Assembly (NCBI GenBank): GCA_032158295.1
Contig: CM063254.1
Coordinates: 1,612,001 to 1,676,000, forward strand
From: Pycnopodia helianthoides
Taxonomy: Eukaryota; Echinodermata; Asteroidea; Forcipulatida; Asteriidae
Length of the DNA: 64,000 bases
Direction: 5' to 3'
In this document: positions 27,201-61,960 of the stretch, piece by piece
How the letters are laid out: each line of letters starts with the position of its first letter
Numbering within the stretch: position 1 is the stretch's first letter
Translations under genes and position numbers: made by a program
The notes under the pieces: generated by a model
Databases searched by the model: none
Seen by the model: the letters and a program-made list of their open reading frames with translations, nothing else
What the model was told of the DNA's origin: nothing

Positions 27201-30200
27201 AAATGTGGTCACTTTTTAAAAATTTGCCTGAAGTCTGAAAAAACTGATCATCTAAAAACCAGCTCAAACATGGGATGACTCAACTACAAAGCCCTCTCCG
27301 CTATCATGCCTTAAGCCTTATACTGCTGCTCAAATGTCCTAAGCTCTTCAAAGTTTTGCTATTCAGAATCGGGTTACCAGTTAAAACACTAAGGGCAAGT
27401 TCACGTTGGCGACTAGAGTGACTAGACTAACCAGAAACAGTGTGACAGTGTGTGACGTAGCTCTCAAATTGACCAGATCGACCATGCTCCAGTGCATGGT
27501 CCAGCTAATCAATCTCCCTGTGCTCTATGGTTTCTGGTAAGTCTAGTCACTCTAGCCACCCACCCGAACTTGCTCTAGGTTATGTACATTATTGGTGACC
27601 TTTTCTTATCAAATCAAATGGTACACTTCTTAACAGCTCAAAGAAATTAAGCTATGACACTGTCCACTCAAGAATGAAAGACACTTAATTTTAACCCTTC
27701 ACTGAGGGGAAACTATGGCTTATTGGTATGGGTAGACCTACAAAGGGCATAGATACCAGTCAATGTTGTTATCATCAAATCTCAGTGGTCTTTAAAATAG
27801 GTTTCTTCGTGGCAAGCTTCTCCAAAAACTGTTAGATTTGTTGGGGGTGATAGTGACATAAACTACCTACCCTAGGGTCAAGGATTGTGCCAATTAAAAA
27901 CACCAACATTTTGAACACTGATGAAGTAATAATCTAATAAAAGAAGGAAATCTTTTGGTTTTCAGAGAATGAGTTATAGTAATTTTTACTACAGGTTCAA
28001 GTTGAGAAATGAAAATATTTATCCTCAATACAATTTGACCACCTGAAAGAGTTTTGTTAAAAAAAAAAAAAACCTGCTGAATTCGTCATTTTATATTTTG
28101 CAGTTCAACGCGAGATTTAAACTCAAGTCTTAAAAGCATCTGCAAATGCACTAAAATCTGCTTGCAGGCAACACTTTCCCATGATGCATCATCCCGGTGC
28201 TGGTTGCCAACAGATCATAACTTACTTGAACCCCTTTAGTTTTTCTCATCTCTCCGTGTCCTTTTACCTTTTGCTGAACGACGCTTGGCAAAGAGCGCCC
28301 TCTGGTGATTCTGAGCATACGTAGTTCATCCTCTGATGAGCCCATCCTGGAGAAGTCCACATCACTGGCGTAGCCGTTGGGGCTCTGGAAGCCAGGGGGG
28401 CTCTGGAATCCAGGGGGGCTCTGGTATCCGATACTGAACAGGACTGAGATAACCGGGAGGACTTAGGCAACCTCCTGGACTACGATATCCATCTGATAAA
28501 CCTGACAGCAATAAAATAAGTTACACATATTATTATTATTATTTTTTTAAATTTATTTATTGATAACCAACAGCGGTTAGCCGCCACTAACAGGTATCAT
28601 CAAAATAAGAAATAAGAAAGCACTGAAAACATTCAATAAAATAAATATATAAATGTTTAAGAAAAACCATTAAAAAAGTAAAAAATATATAACGATGTAC
28701 AAATTATATATAATAAAAATAAATAAACATGAAGCCTAAGTGATTCAATAATATGCAAAACAACCTTTAAATGACCTAAGTACGAGAAGATTATTAGTTA
28801 TCACACAGTGGAATACCAACAAATATAGTGCTTCTGCACAAAGTTTATTAGACCAGTAGACCAATGTCATTTTCTATAGCCTGCCCGACACACTATTTTC
28901 CTCTTGTATAGAACTCCCCCCCCCCCAAAAAAAAATCCTCAAAAGAATTCCTGAGGTTCCAAGCACACAATGAAGACACAATAGGGGGGGGGGGGGTACC
29001 CTCTGCCCCATATTGAGCACCAATTGTCATTTTCTTGCAGTTAAGGAACTTACCATCATTGAACCAGCTTGGAGGACCACTTCTTGAACTCAGAGGCAGG
29101 GAACTAGACTTCCTGTATGCATCAGTCTATATCACAAACAGATCAGCTTTAGTATGGTGTGTGAATTATTAGAAATCTATTCACAATGATTGCTTAATGC
29201 AATGTCCAATTCAAACTTGAATGCCTTATCAACATTCCATAACAAAATGTTAACAATGCTGAACTGTTGTAAGTACAATTTACTGTTAAAAACCTGCTGA
29301 GACAATCGCAATGATGTTTGGAAAGATACTATATGTTTATGGAGAATTGTAAAAAGCAAATATCAACATATCAACAATGAACGACAAAACTTGAACATGA
29401 GTATATACTCACTAGGCTCATGTTGCGCATGTTGGCTGGCAAAGTGAAACTCCTCTCTGTGAAGGAATAATATAAATATGTTACAATGTGCTTTGGTCAC
29501 CTTCACTGTGAATTAATTCTGGGTATCCTTGAGGGAAACATTTGTATAATTATGACGGCACTTGTTGCATGTAATTCTCTAATAACGCAAACTTCCATGC
29601 ATTAACCACCATCATAGAGCAGCCATTTTGTCTTTCTTCCATTTAAATTGATGGCCCTTTTCGAAACCATGGCTTGGGCTTAGGCTGTGGCTTAGGCTGT
29701 GGCTTAGGCTCTGTCAGTCATTTTGATAGTGTACACTTTCAGTAAGGGACTTCAAACAGGCAGATGGTGCCTGAGCCGGAGCCACAAGCCCAGCCGTGGT
29801 TTCAACAAGGGCCTATAGTAACCAAACCAAGGCTGGAAGTAAAAAATAGTCTGGTCCCTTCATGTAGAGTGAATGACAGTATTCATGCATTCTACATACA
29901 GGACACTTGACAAAGATGGCTGCAGCATGAAACGGTCTACTAATGCACAATATTCAAGGTTAGACAAATCTATTAGTTTGTTATCAACAAGTAACATGTT
30001 ATTGAGATCAATAGTTTATCTAGTAATCTAGTTGTCATCATTTGATTTATTGATTTTTTTTCTATTTGGACGGTAAAGGAGTTGGATTGGAGGAACTTTA
30101 CCTGCATTTTTGAAGTATTAAAGAAACCACATAATCATTATATGTGCGCCCAATTTTGTCACTGCCAAGTTGGCCCATAATGCTTTGTGAAATCAAACAT

Positions 30201-39200: not shown

Positions 39201-42200
39201 TCGCATTTTGATTGGGAAATGGCAATTAAATTGTTTTTTTTAAACATTAAATTTCAAAACAAGAAAACCTCAAAACCTGGAAATATAATTACGTTTATTA
39301 TTATTATTATTATCGATTAAGGCTTATGTATGTTGTTACCGAATTGAGTAATAATAGGTACAGTTTGACTGTTGGCTTTCAGTGGCAATGTCAAAGCTTA
39401 TGTAGTAATCTAGCCATAGCCACAGCCACAGCCATCAGTCTAGTAACAGCCTCAACGTTTGCCTACAAGCCAAGTCTTCCAAAATCCTTCCCCTCGCCTT
39501 TTCATGGTTTTGATGAATTGATAAGTATGATACAGCAATGCTTAGCCATGCTCAGATGGGTTTTGACGACCAATGTCAATTGGTTTAGCTTAAATGATGG
39601 AATTTGATGAATATGAGATTGTTTTTGGGGGGGAGTTTACGCAGGTCAATGAACTTTGTCTGCTATCAACATTACACTGTCCCGGATTGATTCTTACCAT
39701 GAGACCATTTTTTCACCTGCGGGGGGGTCACTCTAGTAGTCTGGCCTTTGTATTTATTATCCTCCGCTGATGAAAGAAAGAGTGATTCGTCATACATGCA
39801 AAAATAAAAACTAAACCCAAACAAAACTCTTGAAAATCAAGACAAAAGAAAATGAGAAAGCGAACAGGCAGAAAAACAGCCATGTAAATCAAAGAAGATA
39901 GCAGAAGAGGACAAAAAATGGAAAGAAATATATTGTATTTTAGCTTTACCAAGAGTGCATCACAGAAGTAAGAATTTAGAACGGCATACATCTATCATGT
40001 AAGCAATGGGCCATTTTGGGACATTGGTTGGCAGCAGAAAAAAACCCAAGTGAATGCACCTTGGAGCTGAAGCTCTACACCAAGTGCACCTTGCAAGCTG
40101 AAGCTATGCACCAAGTAAGTGCACCTTGCAAGCTGAAGCTATGTACCAAGTAAGTGCACCTTGCAAGCTGAAGCTATGTACCAAGTAAGTGCACCTTGCA
40201 AGCTAAGCTATGCACCAAGTAAGTGCACTTGCAAGCTGAAGCTATGTACCAAGTAAGTGCATCCTTGCAAGCTGAAGCTATGTACCAAGTAAGTGCACCT
40301 TGCAAGCTGAAGCTATGCACCAAGTAAGTGCACCTTGCAAGATGAAGCTATGCACCAAGTAAGTGCACCTTGCAAGCTGAAGCTATGCACCAAGTAAGTG
40401 CACCTTGCAAGCTGAAGCTATGCACCAAGTAAGTGCATCTTGCAAGCTGAAGCTATGTACCAAGTAAGTGCACCTTGCAAGCTGAAGCTATGCACCAAGT
40501 AAGTGCACTTGCAAGATGAAGCTATGCACCAAGTAAGTGCACCTTGCAAGCTGAAGCTATGCACCAAGTAAGTGCACCTTGCAAGCTGAAGCTATGACCA
40601 AGTAAGTGCACCTTGCAAGCTGAAGCTATGCACCAAGTAAGTGTACCTTGCAAGCTGAAGCTATGCACCAAGTAAGTGCACCTTGCAAGCTGAAGCTATG
40701 TACAATAAGTGCACCTTGCAAGTGAAGCTATTACATTAAGTAAGTGCACCTTGCAAGATGAAGCTATACACCAAGTAAGTGCACCTTGCAAGCTGAAGCT
40801 ATGTACCAAGTAAGTGCACCTTGCAAGATGAAGCTATACACCAAGTAAGTGCACCTTGCAAGCTGAAGCTATACACCAAGTAAGTGCACCTTGCAAGCTG
40901 AAGCTATACACCAAGTAAGTGCACCATTGCAACTTGAAGCTATGTAACACAGTAAGTGCACCTTGCAAGATGAAGCTATACACCAAGTAAGTGCACCTTG
41001 CAAGCTGAAGCTATACACCAAGTAAGTGCACCTTGCAAGCTGAAGCTATACACCAAGTAAGTGCACCTTGCAAGCTGAAGCTATGTAACAAGTAAGTGCA
41101 CCTTGCAAGCTGAAGCTATGCACCAAGTAAGTGCACCTTGCAAGCTGAAGCTATAAACCAAGTAAGTGCACCTTGCAAGCTGAAGCTATGCACCAAGTAA
41201 GTGCACCTTGCAAGATGAAGCTATGCACCAAGTAAGTGCACCTTGCAAGCTGAAGCTACACACCAAGTAAGTGCACCTTGCAAGCTGAAGCTATGTACCA
41301 AGTAATTGACCATGCAAGCTGAAGCTATACACCAAGTAAGTGCACCTTGCAAGCTGAAGTTATAAACCAAGTAAGTGCACCTTGCAAGCTGAAGCTATGT
41401 ACCAAGTAAGTGCACCTTGCAAGCTGAAGCTATGTACCAAGTATGTGCACCTTGCAAGATGAAGCTATACACCAAGTAAGTGCACCTTGCAAGCTGAAGC
41501 TATGTACCAAGTAAGTGCACCTTGCAAGATGAAGCTATACACCAAGTAAGTGCACCTTGCAAGCTGAAGCTATAACCAAGTAAGTGCACCTTGCAAGCTG
41601 AAGCTATGCACCAAGTAAGTGCACCTTGCAAGCTGAAGCTATGCACCAAGTAAGTGCACCTTGCAAGCTGAAGCTATGCACCAAGTAAGTGCACCTTGCA
41701 AGCTGAAGCTATGCACCAAGTAAGTGCACCTTGCAAGCTGAAGCTATGTACCAAGTGCACCTTGCAAGCTGAAGCTATGTACCAAGTAAGTGCACCTTGC
41801 AAGCTGAAGCTATGCACCAAGTAAATGCACCTTGCAAGATGAAGCTATGTACCAAGTAAGTGCACCTTGCAAGCTGAAGCTATAGCACCAAGTAAGTGCA
41901 CCTTGCAAGATGAAGCTATTACACAAGTAAGTGCACCTTGCAAGCTGAAGCTATGTACCAAGTAAGTGCACCTTGCAAGCTGAAGCTATGTACCAAGTAA
42001 GTGCACCTTGCAAGTGAAGCTATGTACCAAGTAAGTGCACCTTGCAAGCTGAAGCTATACACCAAGTAAGTGCACCTTGCAAGCTGAAGCTATGTACCAA
42101 GTAAGTGCACCTTGCAAGTGAAGCTATTCACCAAGTAAGTGCACCTTGCAAGCTGAAGCTATAAACCAAGTAAGTGCACCTTGCAAGATTAAGCTATAAA

Positions 42201-45200
42201 CCAAGTAAGTGCACCTTGCAAGCTGAAGCTATGCACCAAGTAAGTGCACCTTGCAAGCTGAAGCTATGCACCAAGTAAGTGCACCTTGCAAGCTGAAGCT
42301 ATGCACCAAGTAAGTGCACCTTGCAAGCTGAAGCTATGTACCAAGTAAGTGCACCTTGCAAGCTGAAGCTATGTACCAAGTTAGTGCACCTTGCAAGCTG
42401 AAGCTATGCACCAAGTAAGTGCACCTTGCAAGATGAAGCTATGTACCAAGTAAGTGCACCTTGCAAGCTGAAGCTATGTACCAAGTAAGTGCACCTTGCA
42501 AGCTGAAGCTATGTACTAAGTAAGTGCACCTTGCAAGCTGAAGCTATGTACCAAGTAAGTGCACTTGCAAGCTGAAGCTATGCACCAAGTAAGTGCACCT
42601 TGCAGGCTGAAGCTATGTACCAAGTAAGTGCACCTTGCAAGCTGAAGCTATGCACCAAGTAAGTGCACCTTGCAAGCTGAAGCTATGCATTAAGTAAGTG
42701 CACCTTGCAAGATGAAGCTATTCACCAAGTAAGTGCACCTTGCAAGCTGAAGCTATGCACCAAGTAAGTGCACCTTGCAAGCTGAAGCTATGCACCAAGT
42801 AAGTGCACCTTGCAAGATGAAGCTATGCACCAAGTAAGTGTACCTTGCAAGCTGAAGCTATGCACCAAGTAAGTGCACCTTGCAAGCTGAAGCTATGCAC
42901 CAAGTAAGTGCACCTTGCAAGCTGAAGCTATGCACCAAGTAAGTGCACCTTGCAAGATGAAGCTATGTACATAATGTTTCTTATAAAATTATTTCTTTGA
43001 TAGTTTTAATCTTTGGTGTCTTTAAATATAAAACCATGCATATCAAATCACATTCTCCTCGTTGTTGTCGAATAAGGGAATTTATGCAAAAGTCATCCAA
43101 AGCAACAGAAGTAAATTAGATAAAGACAGAATAATGAGGACTTTGTGAATGGAAATTTGTTTCTAAATGAAGAAGAAAGTGCTGCAATTATTTGTGTTGG
43201 GCTGGCAAGACGGCAAATTAAGGCAACTGCAACCCATGATTATACCAGATTAAAGCTTTTCAACAACACACACCTGGTACTGAAATAAAACTGACATTGT
43301 CAAGACTCTTTATTGCTACTTGTTCTCAGCAAATAAATCGCTTCATGAAACAGATCCTGACCCCCCAAAAAATAAAGATAAAGTAAATGTAGCTGATTGA
43401 CGCCTCTACAACACAAGATTCTATAGCTGAGCTGGATGATGGTAAAGAGTGGAAGAGCAAACACGAATTCACATTCTGTCACATTATTGAAACCCTCCAC
43501 CTGTTTTTTTAGTTCAGCAAACGTGTAGAGAATGAATTGTCAGTGTCAATGGATGATGCATGCTGAAGTGAAATGTTAGTAGAGGTTGAACCATGGAGTG
43601 ATCAAATGTATTTACCCTTGTTGACATATTCTGATGAATGGATAATCACAACCAGCCAATGTAGCCCAACATACAAAGCAGGAACGGAAGAGAAAAAAGG
43701 ACTGCCATGAATGCTTCGATCATTCTATGCTTCTAAGACTGCGTCTGATACTAGGGCTCAAATTTTACACTGGACCGCTGGCCCGAGGCCAGTGATTTTA
43801 GCATCGGGCCAGTAAACTCATGTCTGGACAAGTCCGGTGGTCTTGTGTTTGTGTTCAAATGTTGACTTTCAGTCTGATAAACACAATTCTGTTGATTATC
43901 AAAGACTACTTACCCCTAATATAAAAGTTAGATAAATCTTCTCTTAGCGCTTTTTCAAATTCAAACAGTTTAACTATTAACCTGTGTTGGCATTTTTTCT
44001 TCTTACTTCAATTCTGGTCTTGTACTCAAAATTCCGGTTCAGTAAATATTTTGAGCTACAAGCCCTGCGGTCTTGTGAGTTTTCCCCTGAAATTCTAGCC
44101 CTGGATACTAATGTGTCTTTGGAAGTGACTCTGACTTGAATAGCACTTAGTCCCAAGTACAGACCCCTTACATTGGCCGCCACCGTTGATGGAACGTGTT
44201 CACGCGTAAAAGGCTATCATTGGCTGAGAGTTGTGCGCAGTGCGTAGTGCACATTCCCATTGTTATTCATCCAAGATGGTGGTCACTGATGTCATGTGCA
44301 ATCCATCTATTGGCATAGCCCTAGCCATTACTTCAGAACACAGCGCTAGCTTGGATCATTTACATTTCCTTTCATGCAGGCTTTCTACACTTGTTTAACA
44401 TTCAGACAACATTTACAACTGTTTTATACACAACATTTTAAACCACAGTTACACTCTCTCTTTTTTTTAACACAAAACACTCTAGTGGTCCAAGCCACTA
44501 GCCAACTGCACATAAAACACTATGAGGAATACAACAAAATGGTTGCTTTTCAAACATAATGACAATTCATATTCATTTGAGGAACATAATCAAGATGATG
44601 GCAGCATGATAAAGATCTGTTGTGCTCGGTTTATTTTGCAAAACCAAATCAGATAAAATTTAGCATCATTTCCCAAAGATGACAGTCTTCCAAGCAATAA
44701 TGAGCACGTTTAATCAAAGACTAGTTAACCATAGTTTGACTAACTCCGATCCCAGCGCATGCAAGTCGACGATGGTTGGCCTAATCAAGTAGACAATCTG
44801 TGACCAGCGAGGTTGGTCCCATCACTGGTTACCAATAGCCGTGTTAATCACAGGGTGCAAAGAGGACCAGCCACCAACCACTAATTAACCATTGGTCCTT
44901 GATCGAACTTGCTCTCTATTGTAAATGAAGTATGAACAGAATCATACCGGTACCAACTTTACGAAACAAGCATTGAGGTGAACACGTAATGAAGTGTCTG
45001 TTCTTTTGATATCCTCCATTGTTGTAACATACAGACCAAACACAAAGCATAAGCAACAATAATGCAATGTGCATACCATCAATGAAATGGATTGACAACT
45101 AAACACATATCTCTACAAATCAAACACAAAGGTGACACCATGTGTAACAAATTCCTACATAGATGTGAGAGAACAACCAGAAAGTTTGGGTTTACACAAT

Positions 45201-51200: not shown

Positions 51201-54200
51201 GCAAAACTCTGGTGTTTGAATGATTTGCATGCCTTGATGTGTTAAACTTCATTATTGTCAGTATCAAATTTCAACAAATTAAGGCAGAAAGATCATTTGT
51301 ACAACTGGTTTTCTGAAATCTGTGATCAATATTATGTGATTCATCATTGAATTTTCCTTCTTTTACTTTTCACTACAAGACAGTTGTTCTTTTCCTATCC
51401 AGTATTGCTTGTTGTTTTAGTGCAGCCATCTTTTATTTCCCATTCAAATCAATGTTGTCAAACTGAGGCTAAAAGGGAAACTGGTCCAGCTCATTGGATA
51501 CAGAGCTAACCAGTTTCCTCAGTTGCTACAACACACAGTAAAGCTGATACAAATGGTGTCAGCATTGCTCTATGTATATCGACTTCATCAGTGAATTCCA
51601 CGAGGAATCTAGTCCATGAAGCCGAGGAATTGCAAGAAGCTTTCTACAAATAGAGCCTTAATGCAATTACTACGTCCTTGTCATTGCAGAGATGTATTGT
51701 GGAGCATTCATTGTTACATACCTCCAGCACTCGGCCTGTAATGTACTGCTCACAGTGTGAACATCTTACTCCAAAGTTTTGCTGGTAATGCTTCTCACAG
51801 TAGGGCTTCCCTTCCCTAAAAACAAAATAAGATCAAAATCAAAATTCACTGACTCCTATAATGATGCCAGAATAATGTACAATTATTTCCAATACCATGA
51901 TAAGAGGCTCTGTGTTTTTGACTAATAAGAAATAAGTTGACCACTTTGTCGTACGATGATAAATTCACAGTAAGCTGACGTAAGTTGATGCATATTCACT
52001 GATCATGGCACATTTTACCTTGAAATTTCAATTTACTTTAAAGTTGCTATTTCACAACGTAATTAAGTTAGTCACAAAGCATTGAATAAAAGACTTAAAT
52101 CAAACATAAAGAACCCGGAATTTCAATTAAACTTTTGTCCTCGGAATTGACATTTTACAGTCATAAATAATCATGACTTCAATTACTGTTGTTTCACTTA
52201 GGCCTTGTAAAACTAATTGGTGAAGTGTCATCCATTAAATGATGGGTTAGAACCATTTTTCTCAGAGACCACAAATGCTTCATGTTGGGCCTCCCTACTT
52301 AGATTTGTATCTGTATAAAAACTCTATATTATCAGCCACAGCAGCCCTCTTTAAAGGCCCTGTACACTATTGGTAAGATCGAAAAACACAATGTTCACAG
52401 ATTCACACATAACTTACATGATTTAAAGTAAGTAATGGTAGAAAGGGTTCCTTAAAATATTTCTGCCTAAAATGCTATCGTTTCTGAGAAACGAGTAAAA
52501 CAATAGTAATTATCGCGCGCGATAATTTGAAAAAACAGAAAACACATAAGATCTCTTTTCACTATTTTCTCGTGACCTCGATGACCAATTGAGCTCAAAC
52601 TTTCACAGGTTTGTTTGTTCATGCATATGTTTAATCACACAAAATGTGGACACTGATTTTGAGCTGTTACCAAAAGTGTACAATACCTTTAAAGGGAAGG
52701 TATACGTTTGGTAATCACTCTTAAAATTAATGACAATAAAAACTTATTTGGTTAGAAGAACAGCAGCTTTCGATAGTATAAAGCATTTTGAGAATCATTT
52801 CACTTCGGAGTAAATATATCGGATTTTATCAGAAAAAAATTCAATATGAAAAGCGTTTCTGTCGGAAACATTTCTCAGATTGTGTATTCCAATGGCGGAT
52901 TGCTCTTCCTGCGTGGACAAAACCGTTCCGGATTTTCGGCGATATCTCAAAAACGCTACCACCTTTTGAAATGATATTTTCACAGGTTAGTTTTATTGTA
53001 TACATCTATATTTATATAGGATTAAAACAATCGATAGATTCCCAAAACCAAAGGCCTTTAACGTGTTCCCTGTAATGAAGACATAAATAATGAAGACAGA
53101 CATTTGTCACTCCAAAGAGTTGACAGAACATTGCTCCTTTCCAGTCTCCATTTGGTTCCATTGATCCTAAGCATACGGTCGGCAAGCATCAGGGCCCAAT
53201 GCATGTTATATAGCTGCTTAAGCCCAAAAAGTAGTTAAGCACAGCAAAATCATGCTTACCAGAATAAGGTTACGGGCCAAACAAACCATGTCACATGTAC
53301 AATTTGTGACTGATTTCTGCTTAGCAGAAAATTGTTCAGCAATATTTTCTGCTTAAGCAGCTCTATGAAATTGGGCATCAGGTTAAATGTAGAGGGTGAG
53401 AAAACCTAATGCATTAACTGCTGGTGTGGTTGAGATTTCGCACACTTTGCATAATTCACTTTATGCAATGTAGGCTGCTTGACATTATGCAAATCTACAT
53501 GCTAAGCCAGTCAACTGAGCTGCATGGCAAGTTACTTCAGCAAAACGATAATGAGGACCAAGTATTGGAACAATAATGGTATTTTTTGGCAGGAAACCAA
53601 TTTCTGCTAAGCAAGTTATTTCTATCCTAAGAAGAGTTTTGAGCTAAGCTAGCTTAACAGACACCTACCTTCCCATGTATTCCCCACTGAGAGGCTTGCT
53701 ACAGACGGCACACTTGAAGCAAGTAACATGCCAGTGTTTCTCCAGAGCAATCAGAGCCTGTCCATTCACTATCTCATGACTACAATGGGCACAACCTGGT
53801 CATTAGACAATAAGATATATCTCATGACTACAATGGGCACAACCTGGTCATTAGACAATAATATATATCTCATGACTACAATGGGCACAACCTGGTCATT
53901 AGACAATAAGATATATCTCATGACTACAATGGGCACAACCTGGTCATTAGACAATAAGATATATCTCATGACTACAATGGCACAACCCGGTCATTAGACA
54001 ATAATATATATCTCATGACTACAATGGGCACAATCTGGTCATTAGACAATAATATATATCTCATGACTACAATGGGCACAACCTGGTCATTAGACAATAA
54101 TATATATCTCATGACTACAATGGGCACAACCTGGTCATTAGACAATAAGACATACAATTCAACCCACTGTCAACCTCCACACAATATCAACGTATCAAAC

Positions 54201-55198
54201 CAATTACATTCAGGGTTGGATTTACAGGGAGGTCATTCTTGGCTTAAGAGCACTTCAAGTACGTTCCCATATCAATCCTGAAGTTTTAAAGAAAGTGCCT
54301 TGTTCTCTGCGAAAATGGACTTACCCCAAAACATAAATTTGTTCTAAGCATAGACTTCTTGCACTAGACATAGCAACTCTTCAACTTTTAAGCACTTTCT
54401 TTTGTTGTGATTTGTGAAACAAAAAAACAATGTAGATCTCTGTTTCAAGATTCAAAGTACAAATCGCTTAACTTAAAAGCAAAAATGTCCAGTGGAATAC
54501 TTTTTCAGTATTGGTGGATACATCATCGTTAAATTGTTAATCGTTGGATCGGTAATCGTTAGTTTCAACCATCAGTTTTAATCTGGTAGCTCAATGATTA
54601 TAAATGTAAGCAGTGCCTATCCCTAGAGATAAATTTCAATCTGTAAAATACTGTCAAAATCATTTGACTTGACATTTATATGTACGGGGCCCAGTTTCAT
54701 GGCTCTGCTTACTGCCAAATTCTGTGCTTGCGATCACCATTCTCCGCTTACTGTGCAAGTGCCGACTTTCTACACTAGCTGTGTAAGCGAAGAATGCCTA
54801 GTAACGTGGAGCACGCACGCGCACAGACAAAAATTCCCTGCTAACCTGTGAAATACGCTTGACGTAAGTGCGGACTTTCCTTCTTCCGTAAGCACCGATT
54901 CTTTGCTTATGGTAAGCAGAGCCATGAAATTTGGCCCAGGTGTGTTACAGAAGTAGTTCAGGAAATCGTTTTCAATTCACAGTAGATTTTAACACACTTT
55001 TGTTCTAAGTTTTGTTACTTACGTATGGTGGCAGTAACAGCTTGCTTAGGTTTGTTGGATGACTTCGACTTGGAGCTCTTCTTGTCCTTGGTAGGGAGTG
55101 TGCCATTAGGAGGTCCTTCTTTAGCAGCTGGACTACATTTGGTGCATAGGACGTCATTGCCATTGTATGTCACCTTCTCCCCAGGGGATATAGTCAAC
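21122..55198 (-). CDS. ABLIM: Actin-binding LIM protein (abLIM/UNC-115 family), 14 spliced exons, 5' end missing
   Basis: Spliced coding region read on the minus strand: 55198-55023, 53795-53669, 51815-51722, 49716-49629, 47759-47719, 46581-46513, 45525-45312, 38900-38682, 37583-37371, 29456-29413, 29126-29054, 28501-28268, 21757-21686, 21235-21122 (1778 nt, about 590 codons). Seen: AG/GT borders on every internal exon, matching phases at each junction, LIM zinc ligands (CAHC, HVTCFKC, YCEKHY, CSHC, YHPTCAKC, IWHPDC), a Ser/Pro-rich linker with REDWPGPPFPP, and a villin headpiece ending LKKMSLLF. Known for the family: four N-terminal LIM domains and a C-terminal headpiece link F-actin to signalling in axon guidance and muscle; the protein acts at the actin cytoskeleton. 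LIM1 and most of LIM2 are absent here, so upstream exons probably lie beyond 64000. Oddity: exon 12 does not keep one open frame. An orphan dematin-type protein is unlikely because dematins lack LIM domains. Confidence 0.93.
21394..21421. other. Perfect 12-bp hairpin with GCAA loop
   Basis: CTGTCCTTATCC, GCAA, GGATAAGGACAG. It lies in the last abLIM intron; a half copy follows near 21470. Confidence 0.7.
21686..21757 (-). CDS. ABLIM: abLIM exon: first half of villin headpiece
   Basis: 24 codons, phase 0 at both ends, reading IYPLGTLLTTNYRLPKDVDR and NNLE. (I/V)YP...L......LP.DVDR..LE is the N-terminal subdomain of the villin headpiece, where the Asp and Arg are conserved structural residues. 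Acceptor ATATATTTCAG, donor GTAAGA. Confidence 0.95.
21810..22345. repeat. 32-bp minisatellite, about 16 units
   Basis: Unit is ATTGGTACCTTTATCAACTA then CAGGTCAATTAA, with alternating variants (GGAACC for GGTACC, AAAGG for CAGG). Inside an abLIM intron, about 50 bases upstream of the headpiece exon. Confidence 0.95.
22360..24220. other. abLIM intron; degenerate GGACATAATGG repeats at 23190-23340
   Basis: About six imperfect copies of GGACATAATGG with spacing near 20 bases. Nothing else recognised. Confidence 0.5.
24250..24392 (+). repeat. Retroelement 3' end with (TTGTA)n tail
   Basis: AATGGGCTATATAAACAATG followed by TTGTA pentamers to about 24390, a common 3' end of invertebrate non-LTR elements. 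Confidence 0.5.
25194..25372 (+). repeat. Dispersed repeat, copy 1 of a pair in one intron
   Basis: Very similar to 27751-27927 in the same orientation, for example CTTCGTGGCAAGCTTCTCCA. Confidence 0.8.
25778..26171 (-). mobile_element. TTAA-flanked element, ACAGAATTGGTAAG family, reverse orientation
   Basis: Full-length 394-bp copy with TTAA at both edges and the GCTCACTGAGC internal hairpin. Confidence 0.85.
27394..27576. mobile_element. (GA)GCAAGTTCGGGTGG element, intact copy
   Basis: Left end GGGCAAGTTCACGTTGGCGA and right end CCACCCACCCGAACTTGCTC are inverted; central palindrome near CCAGTGCATGG. Confidence 0.75.
27751..27927 (+). repeat. Dispersed repeat, copy 2 of a pair in one intron
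   Basis: Partner of 25194-25372, about 2.55 kb away. Confidence 0.8.
28268..28501 (-). CDS. ABLIM: abLIM exon with a broken frame: Gly/Tyr/Pro repeats and pre-headpiece segment
   Basis: The strong acceptor (TTATTTTATTGCTGTCAG) opens in the frame expected from the upstream exon: LSDGYRSPGGCLSPPGYLSP. That frame then runs into TGA. The frame that joins the headpiece exon reads GYQSPPGFQSPPGFQSPNGY, then SSEDELRMLRITRGRSLPSV and QQK. Both halves share the same SPPG(Y/F) pattern, which suggests a one-base difference near 28429-28443. An internal acceptor (GGTTATCTCAG, exon from 28443) also restores the frame without any indel. Phase 0 at the 3' end joins QQK to IYPLGTLL exactly as in the family. 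Confidence 0.8.
28510..28760. repeat. A/T-rich retroelement remnant
   Basis: ATT run, then a block AACAGCGGTTAGCCGCCACT with a short palindrome, then an A-rich stretch. Resembles the 3' end of a SINE or LINE in reverse; not assigned. Confidence 0.35.
28882..29024. repeat. Dispersed inverted-repeat element, copy of 12527-12655
   Basis: Shares CAAAAGAATTCC and CAAGCACACAATGAAGACAC; C and G runs are expanded. Lies 30 bases from the donor of the exon at 29054. Confidence 0.7.
29054..29126 (-). CDS. ABLIM: abLIM exon: KSSSLP linker segment
   Basis: 24 codons and one base, reading TDAYRKSSSLPLSSRSGPPS and WFND. Resembles the K(S/A)SLP.Y stretch near the C-terminal linker of vertebrate abLIMs. Donor GTAAGT is strong; the acceptor GATATAG has a weak pyrimidine tract. 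Phase fits the exons on both sides. Confidence 0.8.
29413..29456 (-). CDS. ABLIM: abLIM short exon: linker before the headpiece
   Basis: 44 bases: two leading bases and 14 codons reading RSFTLPANMRNMSL. Acceptor TTCCTTCACAG and donor GTGAGT. Phase fits both neighbours, which is the main support because the peptide is short. The upstream intron is 7.9 kb and holds the hAT-like element and a SINE. Confidence 0.75.
29650..29814. mobile_element. GGCCCTTGTTGAAACCA inverted-repeat element
   Basis: Left GGCCCTTTTCGAAACCATGG and right CCGTGGTTTCAACAAGGGCC are inverted. Interior has GGCTTAGGCTGTGGCTTAGG repeats. Related fragments near 7985-8100 and 37950-38090. Confidence 0.7.
29830..31480. other. 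abLIM intron, nothing recognised
   Basis: No coding exon, RNA gene or multi-copy repeat identified. Confidence 0.45.
31485..31680 (+). repeat. Dispersed repeat with GCACAATATGC(T/A)GCCAATC
   Basis: Shares most of its length with 33660-33825, including TTGAAGTATTAGAC and the end CCAATCAAACCAG. Confidence 0.7.
31681..31841. mobile_element. Palindromic CCTAACTTAGGA element inside a repeat
   Basis: Repeated and inverted copies of CCTAA(C)TTAGGA, GGACGAGTTA and TAACTCG; separates the repeat at 31485 from the SINE body at 31842. Confidence 0.5.
31842..32077 (-). mobile_element. tRNA-derived SINE
   Basis: Minus strand: A box-like TGGCCGAGCGGATAAGAGC and B box GGGTTCGAGTCCTGG, then the body CTTAAGCAAGACACTTAACC and GGGACGTAAAGCCGTTGGTC. 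Same family at 46853-47130 and 38330-38516. Confidence 0.8.
32712..32855 (+). mobile_element. 108-bp retro-unit with 18-bp target duplication
   Basis: TAATTAACCTGTATTAAT occurs exactly at 32712-32729 and 32838-32855. The 108 bases between hold CTGAAGAC, GATCAG...CTGATC, GAAAC (hammerhead-like order), then GGTTCTTTTCAGAACCAACA (histone-type stem-loop), then CTCAAAAGAGATT. The long, variable-type duplication implies retroposition rather than a DNA transposon. Confidence 0.8.
33660..33825 (+). repeat. Dispersed repeat, second copy of 31485-31680
   Basis: Shares TTCAACATTCAGTATTTT(T/C)CTGC and the CCAATCAAACCAG end. Confidence 0.7.
33880..34560. mobile_element. hAT-like non-autonomous transposon with 8-bp target duplication
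   Basis: Termini TAAGCTTGGGCGATA and TATCGCCCAAGCTTA are perfect 15-bp inverted repeats, extended by ATATCGCGAT-rich arms. Flanks are ATGATATA at 33872-33879 and 34561-34568. An 8-bp duplication is typical of hAT elements. No transposase frame; 681 bp. Contains a 32-bp tandem near 34015-34085. Confidence 0.85.
34570..36040. other. abLIM intron; histone-type stem-loop at 35014, otherwise nothing recognised
   Basis: No coding exon seen. See the separate stem-loop entry. Confidence 0.45.
35014..35029 (-). other. Histone 3' stem-loop-like sequence, second exact copy
   Basis: Minus strand GGCTCTTTTCAGAGCC followed by ACC. About 40 bases 5' on the same strand is CTGATGA. Likely a degraded member of the 108-bp retro-unit family. 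Confidence 0.7.
36046..36228. mobile_element. (GA)GCAAGTTCGGGTGG element, intact copy
   Basis: Left GGGCAAGTTCGGGTTGGCGA and right TCGCCCACCCAAACTTACTC are inverted; near-identical to 27394-27576. Confidence 0.75.
37371..37583 (-). CDS. ABLIM: abLIM exon: charged linker
   Basis: 70 codons with two leading bases and one trailing base. Reads DLDLDANERKEENEMKDEV, then GKEILKEELSKTKLDNLDPR. GKEILKEEL resembles the GRLILKEEM block of vertebrate abLIM linkers. The middle is highly charged and could form a short helix. Acceptor AAAAATCTCAG, donor GTATGT. Confidence 0.9.
38330..38516 (-). mobile_element. tRNA-derived SINE, 5' part
   Basis: Minus strand GGCGTGTCATGGCCGAGCGG and TGGGTTCGAATCACGG (A and B boxes), then AGACACTAGTGCCCTTGAGC. 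Body truncated. Confidence 0.75.
38682..38900 (-). CDS. ABLIM: abLIM exon: dematin-like linker block
   Basis: 72 codons with two leading bases and one trailing base. Reads RYGRPRPKSAFESLMPKP near the start, REDWPGPPFPPTIKRWW near the end. The DWP.PP block is shared by abLIM and dematin linkers. The frame is open on the coding strand, and codon use is richer in G+C than the flanking introns. Acceptor TATTTTGCAG, donor GTGAGG. Confidence 0.9.
38980..40040. other. abLIM intron, nothing recognised
   Basis: Short ATT run near 39297; no exon or repeat family. Confidence 0.45.
40048..42970. repeat. 35-bp satellite array, about 80 units
   Basis: Unit AAGTGCACCTTGCAAGCTGA then AGCTATG(C/T)ACCAAGT. 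Variants mix (CTG/ATG, GC/GT/AC), with scattered one-base gaps. Lies in the 6.4-kb abLIM intron between exons ending at 45312 and starting at 38900. Each unit carries GTAAGT on the plus strand, opposite to the gene. Confidence 0.97.
42985..44155. other. abLIM intron, nothing recognised
   Basis: No coding or repeat signal identified. Confidence 0.45.
44161..44316. mobile_element. Diverged copy of the TAGATGGATTGCA element
   Basis: Ends near CATTGGCCGCCACCGTTGATG and CATCCAAGATGGTGGTCACTG, then CAATCCATCTA; compare 15268-15421. Confidence 0.5.
44702..44912. mobile_element. Inverted-repeat element (ACTAGTTAACCA ends)
   Basis: Left AATCAAAGACTAGTTAACCA is mirrored by TGGT-type ACTAATTAACCATTGGTCC near the right end. 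Single copy here. Confidence 0.45.
45217..45263 (-). CDS. Candidate alternative terminal exon of abLIM
   Basis: A good 3' splice site (polypyrimidine tract, then TTTAATAG) precedes 47 bases that, joined in phase to the exon ending at 45312, read EGKSESPWEQYKKDH and stop. The gap between the two is only 48 bases, so this could instead be simple read-through of the same frame, which also reaches this stop. Either product would lack the dematin-like blocks and the headpiece. No clear AATAAA was seen just downstream. Could be chance. Confidence 0.3.
45312..45525 (-). CDS. ABLIM: abLIM exon: Ser/Pro-rich linker ending FHRP
   Basis: 71 codons plus one base, opening TSPRARSLSPSSSRFHSP and closing PPTSPNFHRP. 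Very rich in SP and TP pairs, so likely disordered and a probable target of proline-directed kinases (inference). The FHRP-G ending matches a short conserved block of vertebrate abLIM linkers. Acceptor TTTGTTTCAG; donor GTAAAG is weaker. Reading on past the donor stays open for about 30 codons; see the separate candidate terminal exon. Confidence 0.9.
45570..45591. repeat. (GATA)n microsatellite
   Basis: Five GATA units in the abLIM intron just 5' of the exon at 45312-45525. Confidence 0.85.
45916..46107. mobile_element. GGGCCCAATTTCATAGAGCTG hairpin element
   Basis: Inverted ends GGGCCCAATTTCATAGAGCT and AGCTCTATAAAATTGGGCC. Interior nearly identical to 16056-16248. Confidence 0.75.
46226..46439. 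mobile_element. Long-arm inverted-repeat element (TATAGACCCATTGCACAAC)
   Basis: The two halves are inverted over nearly the full 214 bp, for example CCATTTTGGGTGTCGAAACG against CGTTTTGACACCCAAAATGG. Flanked by TA. Confidence 0.75.
46513..46581 (-). CDS. ABLIM: abLIM exon: post-LIM linker
   Basis: 23 codons, phase 0 at both ends, reading IVDLSPLKLKENAMLYDYNR and NRL. The position and the pattern of an acidic start, then (A/S)(I/M)LYD, resemble the segment after LIM4 in vertebrate abLIMs. Acceptor CATTTCCTTTCAG, donor GTGAGC. Confidence 0.8.
46853..47130 (+). mobile_element. tRNA-derived SINE, longest copy
   Basis: A box GTGGCCAAGCGGTTAAGAGC, B box GGGTTCGAGTCCTGG, then the body CTTAAGCAAGACACTTAAACC, GGGACGTAAAGCCATATGTC and AAGAACCCAGTT. 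The head looks like a Leu or Ser tRNA but does not fold as a functional tRNA. Confidence 0.8.
47216..47589. mobile_element. TTAA-flanked element, GGCACTGGACAC family
   Basis: Ends AAGGCACTGGACACTATG and AGGTGTCCAGTGCCTTTAA are inverted, with TTAA at both edges. Lies 130 bases downstream of the donor at 47719. Confidence 0.75.
47719..47759 (-). CDS. ABLIM: abLIM short exon: last ligands of LIM4
   Basis: Only 41 bases: two leading bases and 13 codons reading TEIWHPDCSKNLK. IWHPDC ends the LIM4 domain, as in other abLIMs where the corresponding stretch is G(T/S)E(I/V)WHP.C. Strong acceptor (TTTTTTTTGTCTTTAAAG) and GTAAGT donor. Too short to stand out as an open frame alone. Confidence 0.9.
48120..48290 (-). 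mobile_element. tRNA-derived repeat of a second type
   Basis: Minus strand GGTTTCTTTCCCTGCC, then B box TGGTTCAAATCCCGCC and CAGACTGGAGCCCTTGCATG. Confidence 0.5.
48955..49520. repeat. Telomere-like minisatellite, 17- to 20-bp units
   Basis: Units GGGCCCAGTAACCCATA, often with TTA between to give TAACCCATATTAGGGCCCAG. Each unit has TAACCC, and many have TTAGGG. Decays past 49380. Inside the abLIM intron, about 110 bases from the exon at 49629. Confidence 0.93.
49629..49716 (-). CDS. ABLIM: abLIM exon: core of LIM4
   Basis: Reads AGDKRYHPTCAKCGRC, then GSHFAEGEDMYIQ. YHPTCAKCGRC supplies the His and Cys ligands that bridge both zinc sites, and FAEGEDMY is the usual strand before the last ligands. 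Ends with one base (G) before a GTTAGT donor. The telomere-like array at 48955-49520 lies directly downstream in the intron. Confidence 0.95.
49836..50087. mobile_element. Inverted-repeat element, GTGCACAGCCACAATCATGG family
   Basis: Left GTGCACAGCCACAATCATGG and right CCATGATTGTGGCTGTGCAC are perfectly inverted over 20 bases. Second copy at 56041-56290. Confidence 0.8.
50100..51700. other. abLIM intron, nothing recognised
   Basis: A C run at 50903-50916; no exon or repeat family identified. Confidence 0.45.
51722..51815 (-). CDS. ABLIM: abLIM exon: end of LIM3, start of LIM4
   Basis: Reads EGKPYCEKHYQQNFGVRC, then SHCEQYITGRVLE. The YCEKHY motif closes the second zinc site of LIM3, and CSHC opens LIM4. 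Acceptor GTTTTTAG and donor GTATGT. One leading base; the exon ends on a full codon, which fits the next exon starting at phase 0. Confidence 0.95.
52351..52692. mobile_element. TTAA-flanked element, GGCCCTGTACACTATTGGTAAG variant
   Basis: Ends AAAGGCCCTGTACACTATTGG and its diverged mirror near AAAAGTGTACAATACCTTTAA. A perfect 20-bp palindrome, AATTATCGCGCGCGATAATT, is at 52508-52527. Confidence 0.7.
52689..53061. mobile_element. TTAA-flanked element abutting the previous one
   Basis: Starts TTAAAGGGAAGGTATACGTT and ends near GGCCTTTAA; it shares the TTAA at 52689-52692 with the left element. The inverted ends are weak. Confidence 0.5.
53192..53376. mobile_element. GGGCCCAAT-GCTGCTTAAGC hairpin element
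   Basis: Inverted ends GCTGCTTAAGC and GCTTAAGCAGC plus the interior shared with 16056-16248. Confidence 0.7.
53669..53795 (-). CDS. ABLIM: abLIM exon: first zinc finger of LIM3
   Basis: 41 full codons reading CAHCSHEIVNGQALIALEK, then HWHVTCFKCAVC, then SGEYMG. All four ligands of the first LIM3 zinc site and the first ligands of the second site are present, and QAL.AL.K.WHV.CFKC is the usual abLIM LIM3 signature. Leading GT joins the C left by the upstream exon to give Arg; trailing AG joins the G of the next exon. The acceptor (CTAATGACCAG) has a poor pyrimidine tract and lies at the edge of a 48-bp tandem array that copies this same exon border. Confidence 0.95.
53765..54156. repeat. 48-bp minisatellite made from the LIM3 exon's 3' splice site
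   Basis: Eight copies (counting the exon itself) of a unit whose minus strand reads TTATTGTCTAATGACCAG, then GTTGTGCCCATTGTAGTCAT and GAGATA. The first copy's second part is the start of the exon 53795-53669. Units differ by only a few bases, one with a 1-bp gap near 53980. Confidence 0.95.
54686..54938. mobile_element. GGGGCCCAGTTTCATGGCTCTGCTTA hairpin element
   Basis: Ends GGGCCCAGTTTCATGGCTCT and AGAGCCATGAAATTTGGCCC are inverted (one gap). Related in style to the GGGCCCAATTTCATAGAGCTG family. Confidence 0.7.
55023..55198 (-). CDS. ABLIM: abLIM exon: end of LIM2 and LIM2-LIM3 linker
   Basis: Acceptor CTATTTACAG at the 5' side and donor GTAAGT at the 3' side. The exon starts with one base completing a codon and ends with one base. 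It opens with LTISPGEKVTYNG and CTKC, matching the last zinc ligands of the second LIM domain in abLIMs. A Lys/Ser-rich low-complexity linker follows (KDKKSSKSKSSNKPK), expected to be flexible. The preceding exon (phase 2, carrying the HPxCFxC part of LIM2) was not found in 55200-64000. Confidence 0.88.
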
Positions 55199-59099: not shown

Positions 59100-61960
59100 A
59101 TGTTAATACTGTGGTTTTCACAGTATTCTTAACACACATCTCAAATAAACATTGATCATATTAAGTTGGAATGCCACTTTGGATAGATGCTATTTTAACT
59201 TATCAAAACATTCGTTTTAGAAATCAAACTCCCTGAGCGCTCTGAGGGTAGATATCAGAGTCATTTCATTTATTGAGTTGACTTGCTCTGACATATGTAT
59301 GTCACTGTATCTCTAGTGTTACCATGGTGATCGTTTGCATACATCTGTTGGGGCTTATACATTTCAGAAAGAGGACCACAATCCAACTGTATTAACCCCT
59401 CGCTCCTAAATCATACAAAACCAGTCATACCCACTTGCAATCTACAGGGGGAAATACTGTTTGATTAACAAGATTGGACATGGCTGATTTAAAAACATGG
59501 CCTAGGCATATATTTCAACTTCCCTCAATTACGGACAAAATGTCATGGGACTCCACGAAAGGGTAATGTTAGCAACCCGGGATGGAGTTCAGAACCTGTT
59601 TCAGATGGAGAGACTTTCATTCTTTATTAATGTCTTGAAGACTGCAGCCATGTTAGAGCAAAGACTCGGCAGAGTTAGTATACCGTGTTGGAAGCAGTGC
59701 TGTGGTGTTAGTGCTGAGAAGGAAAAGATGTGTAAGAATCAATGAGCATCACATTTGCTTCCTGGATAAATACAATGAACTTGATCCGCCCAATCTGCTG
59801 ACAAAATGAGCCATCAAATGCAATGTACGCAAAGATCATGCATTTCTCTCTAGACAAAAATAATGGTACTACCAGGTGAACATGTATGCTGTTGTGAAGT
59901 CAAGGTGTCCATACTCATGTGCATTTCAGCTACGTCCAGCTCCTCTAATCACCAGAACACATTACAGTAGGGCGACCAGCACATACATGTACATTCATTA
60001 TCATATATGACATGCATTTCATACCACTTTGTATGATATCATGTAGGAAATATATTCCCCGGGGGGTCATTGTCTGCAATAATCATAATTAATAACAGTC
60101 ATGAATTCATCTTGAACAGCAACATTTGAAAGATAATGCACAGCATTGGTAAAGTGAACAAATAATGACGGGATGCTTGGGATGGTACAAGATGGTTTTT
60201 CAAAAGAATCAATTTGTTACAACATTGTACGTGCTATTCCTCTAATGCTCAAGGAGTATCGCAAATAACTTTTGACTTTTTGGGGAGGGGAAAGATGTAC
60301 AGATGTTTTTTTAAGTAGTGTGTAATGGGTAATTGCTTTGGTAAGCTTGTGAATGTTTTTGTTAAGGTTTAACATAGACTGGGTTCAAATATAAACATTT
60401 TGAGAAAGACAGAATTTGAAACAAAAAAAATTTTCAACAAATTAAAGTGCCGACCGTTGGCTAAAAAAGATTTTGAAAACAATAATAAAAATGCCTTTTT
60501 ACTTCCATTATCAATGAAATTAAATTCATCTTGGAAAGAAATAAACAATAATTGGTTCAATAATCATAAACAAAAAAGTTGCAGTTTATTAGATCTATTA
60601 ACCCTTACTTGTCACTGACTTCTTGTTGGTCTTATGTTAAAAAAGCATGTACTATTGTTGCACCAGTCACTACTTGGTGATTTTTTTTTTTAAATGTATG
60701 TGAGGAACAACTCCTTTGAGGTGTTAAACAAGATATAACAAATATGGATGTGTTTTTTTTTACAACTTATGTCTTGTGGAAAATGATAAGTATTGATTGT
60801 TTGGTGTCTCCTGAATTAGAAAGAAAAAAAAACACTTTAAAAAAACTATAGACAGTTCTAAAACCATCAATCACCAATGCTGTACATTATCTTTACGACA
60901 GACAGATAGAGACAAAGTCTCTTTCCTCATTGGAATATAACATGCTTTTTCTTGCTCTCTGGATGTCAGCTTCTGCCATGCACTCGGAACAATGTTTGCT
61001 TTGTAAGGTGAGAATAAGGCCTAAAATTAATATGAAAATTAGTCATTGCTATCATAAGCATTAAAAAAGCTGCTATTTAATTTTTTTAAAGGACGCTGTT
61101 TAGGAAAGTTGTTAGTAGCGGAAGAAATTAAAAGTAGTTGGTTAGTTAGCCTTGAGCTCAGCAGCCATGATCCATGATACTAAGTACACCCCTGCTTATT
61201 AAATGGTACAATCCTGTCATTAACTTTCAGCCAGTGATAATATTTTGGCCGTTACTTTATGGAATACTGCACTGATGATTGGGGGGTGGATCTCCCTTGA
61301 AGTGAACAGTGAGGGATCCTTTACAAACCTACAGAGGCTGCACTGAAGGTGACAGTGAAGACAGAAACAGCAGCCTAGTCTCTTGTCAAGTGAAACTTCA
61401 TCACCGCTATCGAAGGCATGCCTGGAGGAAACAACCACAAACACATACACAAGACACAAACCAAAGAAATGACAGAAGAGAAAGAGGAAACAAAAATGAA
61501 CTGAAATAAAAAAATATATTTATCAGACAAATCAAATTACAAAAGACACCTGACATTTTCAGCACTACAACCTTATTCAAAACACTGCAAGTAACTACAA
61601 TCCTGCTCAAGTGAGACAGTTCAAAGTATCTTGTTCACCTGCTTAATAATGTTTTAGTCATTAAAATTGTCTTCAACACACTGATTTTTTGCAAAAAGTA
61701 AGTAACATTTTCAGCCAACAACACATCTCAATCTGCGAAGCATTGTCAATGCCGCATTATATGTGGGAATTTGTTGATTGTCATGCAACATACACCGATG
61801 TTGGAAATAAATACGGGCAATTCAGGAGCCAGACATTTTGAATAAAGCCACAGGTACATGGGTGTGTTTTGCTGGTCGTAACCCATTACTATTTTGTTGG
61901 ATTGGTTAATCACTGGCCAATGACTGAAACAGTTATTGGTTTAATATGAGCACCAAAATG
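59100..61960. other. Nothing recognised
   Basis: Searched the minus strand for LIM1/LIM2 patterns (CxxC, HPxC) and found none convincing. Several 60-80-codon frames on both strands lack motifs. Confidence 0.45.

Follow-up and report, generated by a model that had tools for sequence, protein, structure and literature searches.

A splice junction that lies within a tandem array, so that its acceptor is repeated just upstream of the exon, raises the question of which copy is spliced and what, if anything, the others do to the message. This is the situation in the window, the 64,000-nucleotide stretch of the sea star Pycnopodia helianthoides that was analysed here, where an exon of the actin-binding LIM protein gene abLIM begins inside a 48-bp repeat. 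TRF finds 8.0 copies at 53770–54154 (96% matches, score 714), and eight copies at this level of agreement exclude a chance origin. On the minus strand, each copy comprises 22 intron bases ending CTAATGACCAG, followed by the first 26 bases of the exon encoding the third LIM domain (LIM3); the position and make-up of this unit had been given correctly in the initial annotation. The unit spans an exon–intron boundary and copies a splice signal, the property by which the arrays called mirages are recognized. A 501-bp query (53700–54200) has a single match in the 479-Mb, 742-contig genome, in a search that skips simple repeats. The elements are as follows, with the array taken from TRF and the per-copy listing, copies 1–7 from that listing and the acceptor matrix described below, and copy 8 from the listing.

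53669–53795, minus strand: true LIM3 exon of abLIM, 127 bp, with acceptor AG at 53796–53797 and donor GTAGGT from 53668
53770–54154, minus strand: mirage-type tandem array, about 8 × 48 bp
53770–53817, minus strand: copy 8, the true junction
53818–53865, minus strand: copy 7, AG decoy, first exonic base 53843
53866–53913, minus strand: copy 6, AG decoy, first exonic base 53891
53914–53961, minus strand: copy 5, AG decoy, first exonic base 53939
53962–54008, minus strand: copy 4, 47 bp, GG at the acceptor and one exonic base fewer, first exonic base 53986; predicted to be unusable as an acceptor
54009–54056, minus strand: copy 3, AG decoy, G replaced by A at exon position +1, first exonic base 54034
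54057–54104, minus strand: copy 2, AG decoy, first exonic base 54082
54105–54152, minus strand: copy 1, outermost AG decoy, first exonic base 54130
55023–55198, minus strand: upstream abLIM exon, ending ATAC before GTAAGT; its intron (53796–55022) carries the seven upstream copies

The copies are not all equivalent. The acceptor AG is intact in six of the seven upstream copies (seven of eight when the true junction is counted), and only in copy 4 is the CTAATGACCAG intron end replaced by CCGG; C or A variants distinguish further copies. The seven decoy acceptors proposed at the outset thus exist as seven upstream copies, six of which retain an AG. The accompanying proposal that any upstream acceptor would keep phase holds for the 48-bp units and fails for copy 4, because that copy is 47 bp long. 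Similarly, the predicted truncation applies to the six AG-bearing copies, whose frame reads CAHCSHEIY(L/I)IV and then TAA TGA, a stop after 12 codons, while copy 4, if translated, would be in a different frame. The lost AG and lost base of copy 4 are changes such as would be expected of unconstrained copies.

The identity of the host gene is well defined. A hand-joined translation of LIM3 and the next exons matches PDB entries 2dj7 (actin-binding LIM protein 3, E 8.7e-20) and 1wig (KIAA1808 protein, E 7.9e-24) as well as Pfam LIM, confirming the earlier assignment of the array-bearing exon to abLIM LIM3, of which it encodes the first part. Searches with starfish proteins place the exons in one minus-strand abLIM gene, which extends between about 61.4 and 21.1 kb. 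Identity of the LIM3 exon to its counterpart is 97.6% in Asterias amurensis, 92.9% in a protein from a relative (P0001) and 76.2% in Patiria. Among the best 120 of 5,683 matches in a search with P0001, the best named ones are from Asterias amurensis (85%) and Patiria miniata (82% and 77%), followed by Amphiura, sea urchins and sea cucumbers. This ranking spoke against amphioxus, the host that the resemblance to mirages had suggested, and very probably places the host among asteriid sea stars. A lancelet-derived fluorescent protein had no match in the genome, a weak negative in a search that lacked a positive control, and a COX1 family search likewise gave no match.

Several other features of this gene were observed along the way. 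An exon at 61326–61421 (HAFDSGDEV...CSLCR) looks alternatively spliced, because it is present in the database proteins P0022 (Asterias amurensis) and P0024 (Patiria) and missing from P0001 and Patiria P0023. In the exon at 28379–28502, a coding repeat of 18 bp (QSPPGF) exceeds that of P0022 by one unit, and a one-base shift of the frame seems to occur between SPV and SIGY, near 28435. Between its exons at 45.3 and 39.8 kb, the gene also contains about 84 tandem copies of a 35-bp unit (40046–42967).

Proteins from relatives bear on which junction is used. P0001 has 479 amino acids and is encoded on a 2,291-base contig; it very probably derives from a spliced message, because in the window two of the introns that it spans have lengths of 1.2 and 1.9 kb. 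Its junction, in the relative's sequence rather than that of the individual sequenced here, reads ATIR-CAHCSHEIVNGQ with no insert. P0022 has the same ATIR-CAHCSHEIVNGQ; the equivalent stretch of P0023 and P0024 is ATIR-CAQCSKEILNGQ. These four proteins carry the true junction in relatives; they do not show that the decoys are ignored in this species, because they come from other animals, which may lack the array, and P0022–P0024 are database proteins.

Acceptor strength was compared by means of a small matrix for which 15 other abLIM acceptors were used; these themselves score between −1.6 and 9.9 when each is left out of its own matrix. The true acceptor scores 4.1, the six AG decoys 4.1, 4.1, 3.0, 4.1, 4.1 and 4.1, and copy 4 −0.3. 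The matrix is crude, because two unrelated intron AGs upstream of the array, at 54277 (6.9) and 54174 (4.5), outscore the true site. In sequence, the decoys and the true acceptor are near equals, and the true site would be set apart by the exon that it opens and by the donor downstream. With the score of the true acceptor matched by five decoys and nearly reached by the sixth, the decoys are likely to be used at a low level.

Taken together, we consider it very likely that the array is a mirage-type minisatellite, formed over a splice junction and tolerated as a by-product, with the exon-proximal acceptor in use. A 48-bp segment joining the last bases of the intron to the first bases of the LIM3 exon would have been duplicated in tandem and spread to eight copies via slippage or unequal exchange. 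The real exon would be the only copy joined to the remainder of the exon, the other seven being intronic. Splicing would most likely still run from the donor at 55023 to the acceptor at 53795, because the latter opens an ordinary 127-nucleotide exon that has a donor of its own downstream. Any of the six AG decoys, if used, would bring in the stop after 12 codons and presumably send the message to nonsense-mediated decay. Because the exon-proximal acceptor would be the one used, the array could be tolerated, as a by-product of a minisatellite-rich genome.

The initial annotation knew of no described case of this kind; such cases are in fact described in amphioxus, including an array of a 3′ intron end and a 5′ exon part (PMC3087553, PMC3902484). 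Amphioxus mirages are tandem repeats of intron–exon boundaries, reported in Adh3 and the globins BflGb6 and BflGb9 (PMC3087553); troponin C was later added, and repeats in PGBD5 were likened to them (PMC3902484). The abLIM unit resembles them in spanning such a boundary and carrying a splice signal, and it is closest to BflGb6, where a 3′ intron end and part of the 5′ exon are likewise copied, while the BflGb9 mirage involves the 3′ boundary of an exon (PMC3087553). Units of 10–72 bp and somatic instability are reported for the Adh3 mirage, and another amphioxus case has six and three units in two haplotypes (PMC3087553), whereas the abLIM array is known from one assembly. Mirages reportedly leave normal splicing undisturbed and have been discussed as a route of intron gain in cephalochordates (PMC3087553, PMC3902484). 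The abLIM array differs in phylum, gene and sequence; the published mirages considered here are from cephalochordates and this one is from a sea star, a difference in phylogenetic occurrence that involves no structural criterion. Among the titles and abstract openings listed in literature searches, with most subscription journals outside their reach, none was a mirage-type case from an echinoderm.

Two human systems offer further parallels. Internal tandem repeats at human exon–intron boundaries alter gene structure and account for 27 reported intron modifications (PMC2812944), and these, like the abLIM array, are minisatellites at such boundaries, although they occur in recent segmental duplications. 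In ABCA7 intron 18, a variable-number tandem repeat (VNTR) has a 25-bp unit beginning with a splice donor, and retention of one unit introduces a premature stop (PMC5954066). It shares with the abLIM array a tandemly repeated splice signal beside an exon and a premature stop if a unit is retained, but it copies a donor where the abLIM array copies an acceptor. In addition, the structures in the first system are RNA-supported and the effect of length in the second was measured in people, whereas the abLIM array is known from DNA only.

The abLIM array is not the only one of its kind in this genome: arrays that copy a splice signal were found at three of 50 LIM loci including abLIM, two copying an acceptor and one a donor. 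The exon ends at the two further loci, L015 and L051, were read from the sequence alone. At L015 (C19, ~2.0243–2.0247 Mb), a minus-strand LIM exon ending KCAICNRSISQG before GTGAGA continues into an array with a 155-bp unit (about 2.7 copies, locus positions 1081–1495), whose units repeat the exon end and the donor, GGGGTGAG. Of the 43 exon bases that precede the donor, 34 agree with the next copy; alignment with the copy after that gives 36 matches in 48 columns, and both further copies have the GTGAG donor. As read, this array is a donor-side mirage. At L051 (C15, ~0.187 Mb), an array with a 101-bp unit (3.8 copies, 1089–1467) stops precisely at another LIM exon's acceptor, CTCTCATTGCAG before AAACCAGCC. 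The CTCTCATTGCAG acceptor recurs in three upstream copies (exonic side 1165, 1266 and 1367), and in each a second TCATTGCAG comes 12 bases further on. The unit does not include the exon itself, and the domain match at this locus contains stops. A 63-bp array at L047 was rejected as a mirage because it starts about 26 bp inside the intron, and an array at L046, also considered, appears to be intronic. L018 carries a 12-bp CAG-type repeat 52 bp past the domain match.

Whether such placement is special was assessed at two scales. In the window, arrays with a period of at least 10 cover 10.2% of the sequence, and one of 32 abLIM junction points (16 acceptors and 16 donors, the exons at 29.1 and 21.2 kb being left out and donor points being block ends that are possibly a few bases off) falls inside an array; an array over a splice junction is therefore less surprising than it might seem. 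Across the genome, 80 loci (L002–L081) were surveyed around 50 of 53 LIM matches and 30 of the 135 kinase matches listed, for arrays with a period of at least 10 and a score of at least 50; expectations were taken from the flanks, where arrays cover 3.96% of the DNA (8,034 of 202,800 bases, L015 and L031 excluded). With domain-match ends serving as proxies for exon ends, many of them within coding sequence and some loci overlapping, arrays lay within 30 bp of three of 160 ends (8.4–8.5 expected), within 60 bp of six (10.4 expected) and within 100 bp of seven (13.0 expected). For the 100 ends of the LIM loci alone, the counts were three, six and seven (5.6, 6.6 and 8.2 expected), and for the 60 ends of the kinase loci alone they were zero at all three distances (3.0, 3.8 and 4.8 expected). 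At a further locus (L082), no array with a period of at least 8 was present within 100 bp of the nine EGF_CA matches examined. There is no sign that arrays are enriched near domain-match ends.

These data bear on the most serious competing explanation, in which decoys and stops together cause copy-number-dependent unproductive splicing, such that decay of mis-spliced message lets the length of the array set the level of abLIM. Six AG decoys, five of them at the score of the true acceptor and each followed by TAA TGA, are what this explanation calls for, and decoy-bearing arrays do recur, at the three LIM loci. There is also a human precedent, in that longer ABCA7 VNTRs correlate with lower expression and more exon 19 skipping, and the donor of one VNTR unit can be used; yet the isoform retaining that unit is rare (2 ± 1%) and VNTR size is without effect on it (PMC5954066). 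Moreover, one abLIM decoy, copy 4, has decayed, the relative's transcript behind P0001 is normal, arrays are not enriched near domain-match ends, and amphioxus mirages are said to leave splicing undisturbed (PMC3087553, PMC3902484). We therefore regard this explanation as unlikely. The initial annotation had suggested that the array might tune abLIM or act as a splice-fidelity trap; neither the relative's junction, nor array placement, nor the arrays at L015 and L051 support either role. In its most far-reaching form, the array would be a copy-number-tunable poison-splice element, its instability changing in heritable steps the share of abLIM message lost to decoy acceptors, and junction-copying minisatellites would recur across sea star genes and feed both variation in expression and the origin of new splice forms. 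We give this broader proposal little credence.

An assembly artefact, in which the number of copies was expanded or collapsed, is more improbable still. One mirage in a draft amphioxus assembly was apparently misassembled (PMC3087553), but the abLIM copies carry private changes (the lost AG with its 1-nucleotide deletion, the G to A change, and the C or A variants), and a 385-bp array would fit within one long read, its contig being 20.6 Mb. Recursive splicing, in which the AG/GT junction of a decoy would serve first as an acceptor and then as a regenerated donor so that a second splice repairs decoy use, is the least probable of all: AG is followed by GT in five of the six AG decoys and in the true copy (by AT in copy 3), but the regenerated donor C/GTTGTG differs from the flanking GTAAGT and GTAGGT donors and the copies are just 48 bp apart, which is short for an intron.

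The tolerated mirage-type minisatellite that we favour belongs, as far as the literature was searched, to a described kind in a new lineage; the present cases add that mirages occur, and apparently recur, outside cephalochordates. That splice-signal arrays are present at three of 50 LIM loci suggests that mirages arise wherever minisatellites are abundant. With near-identical decoys next to the true acceptor, the abLIM array also constitutes a natural test of how the spliceosome chooses among equals.
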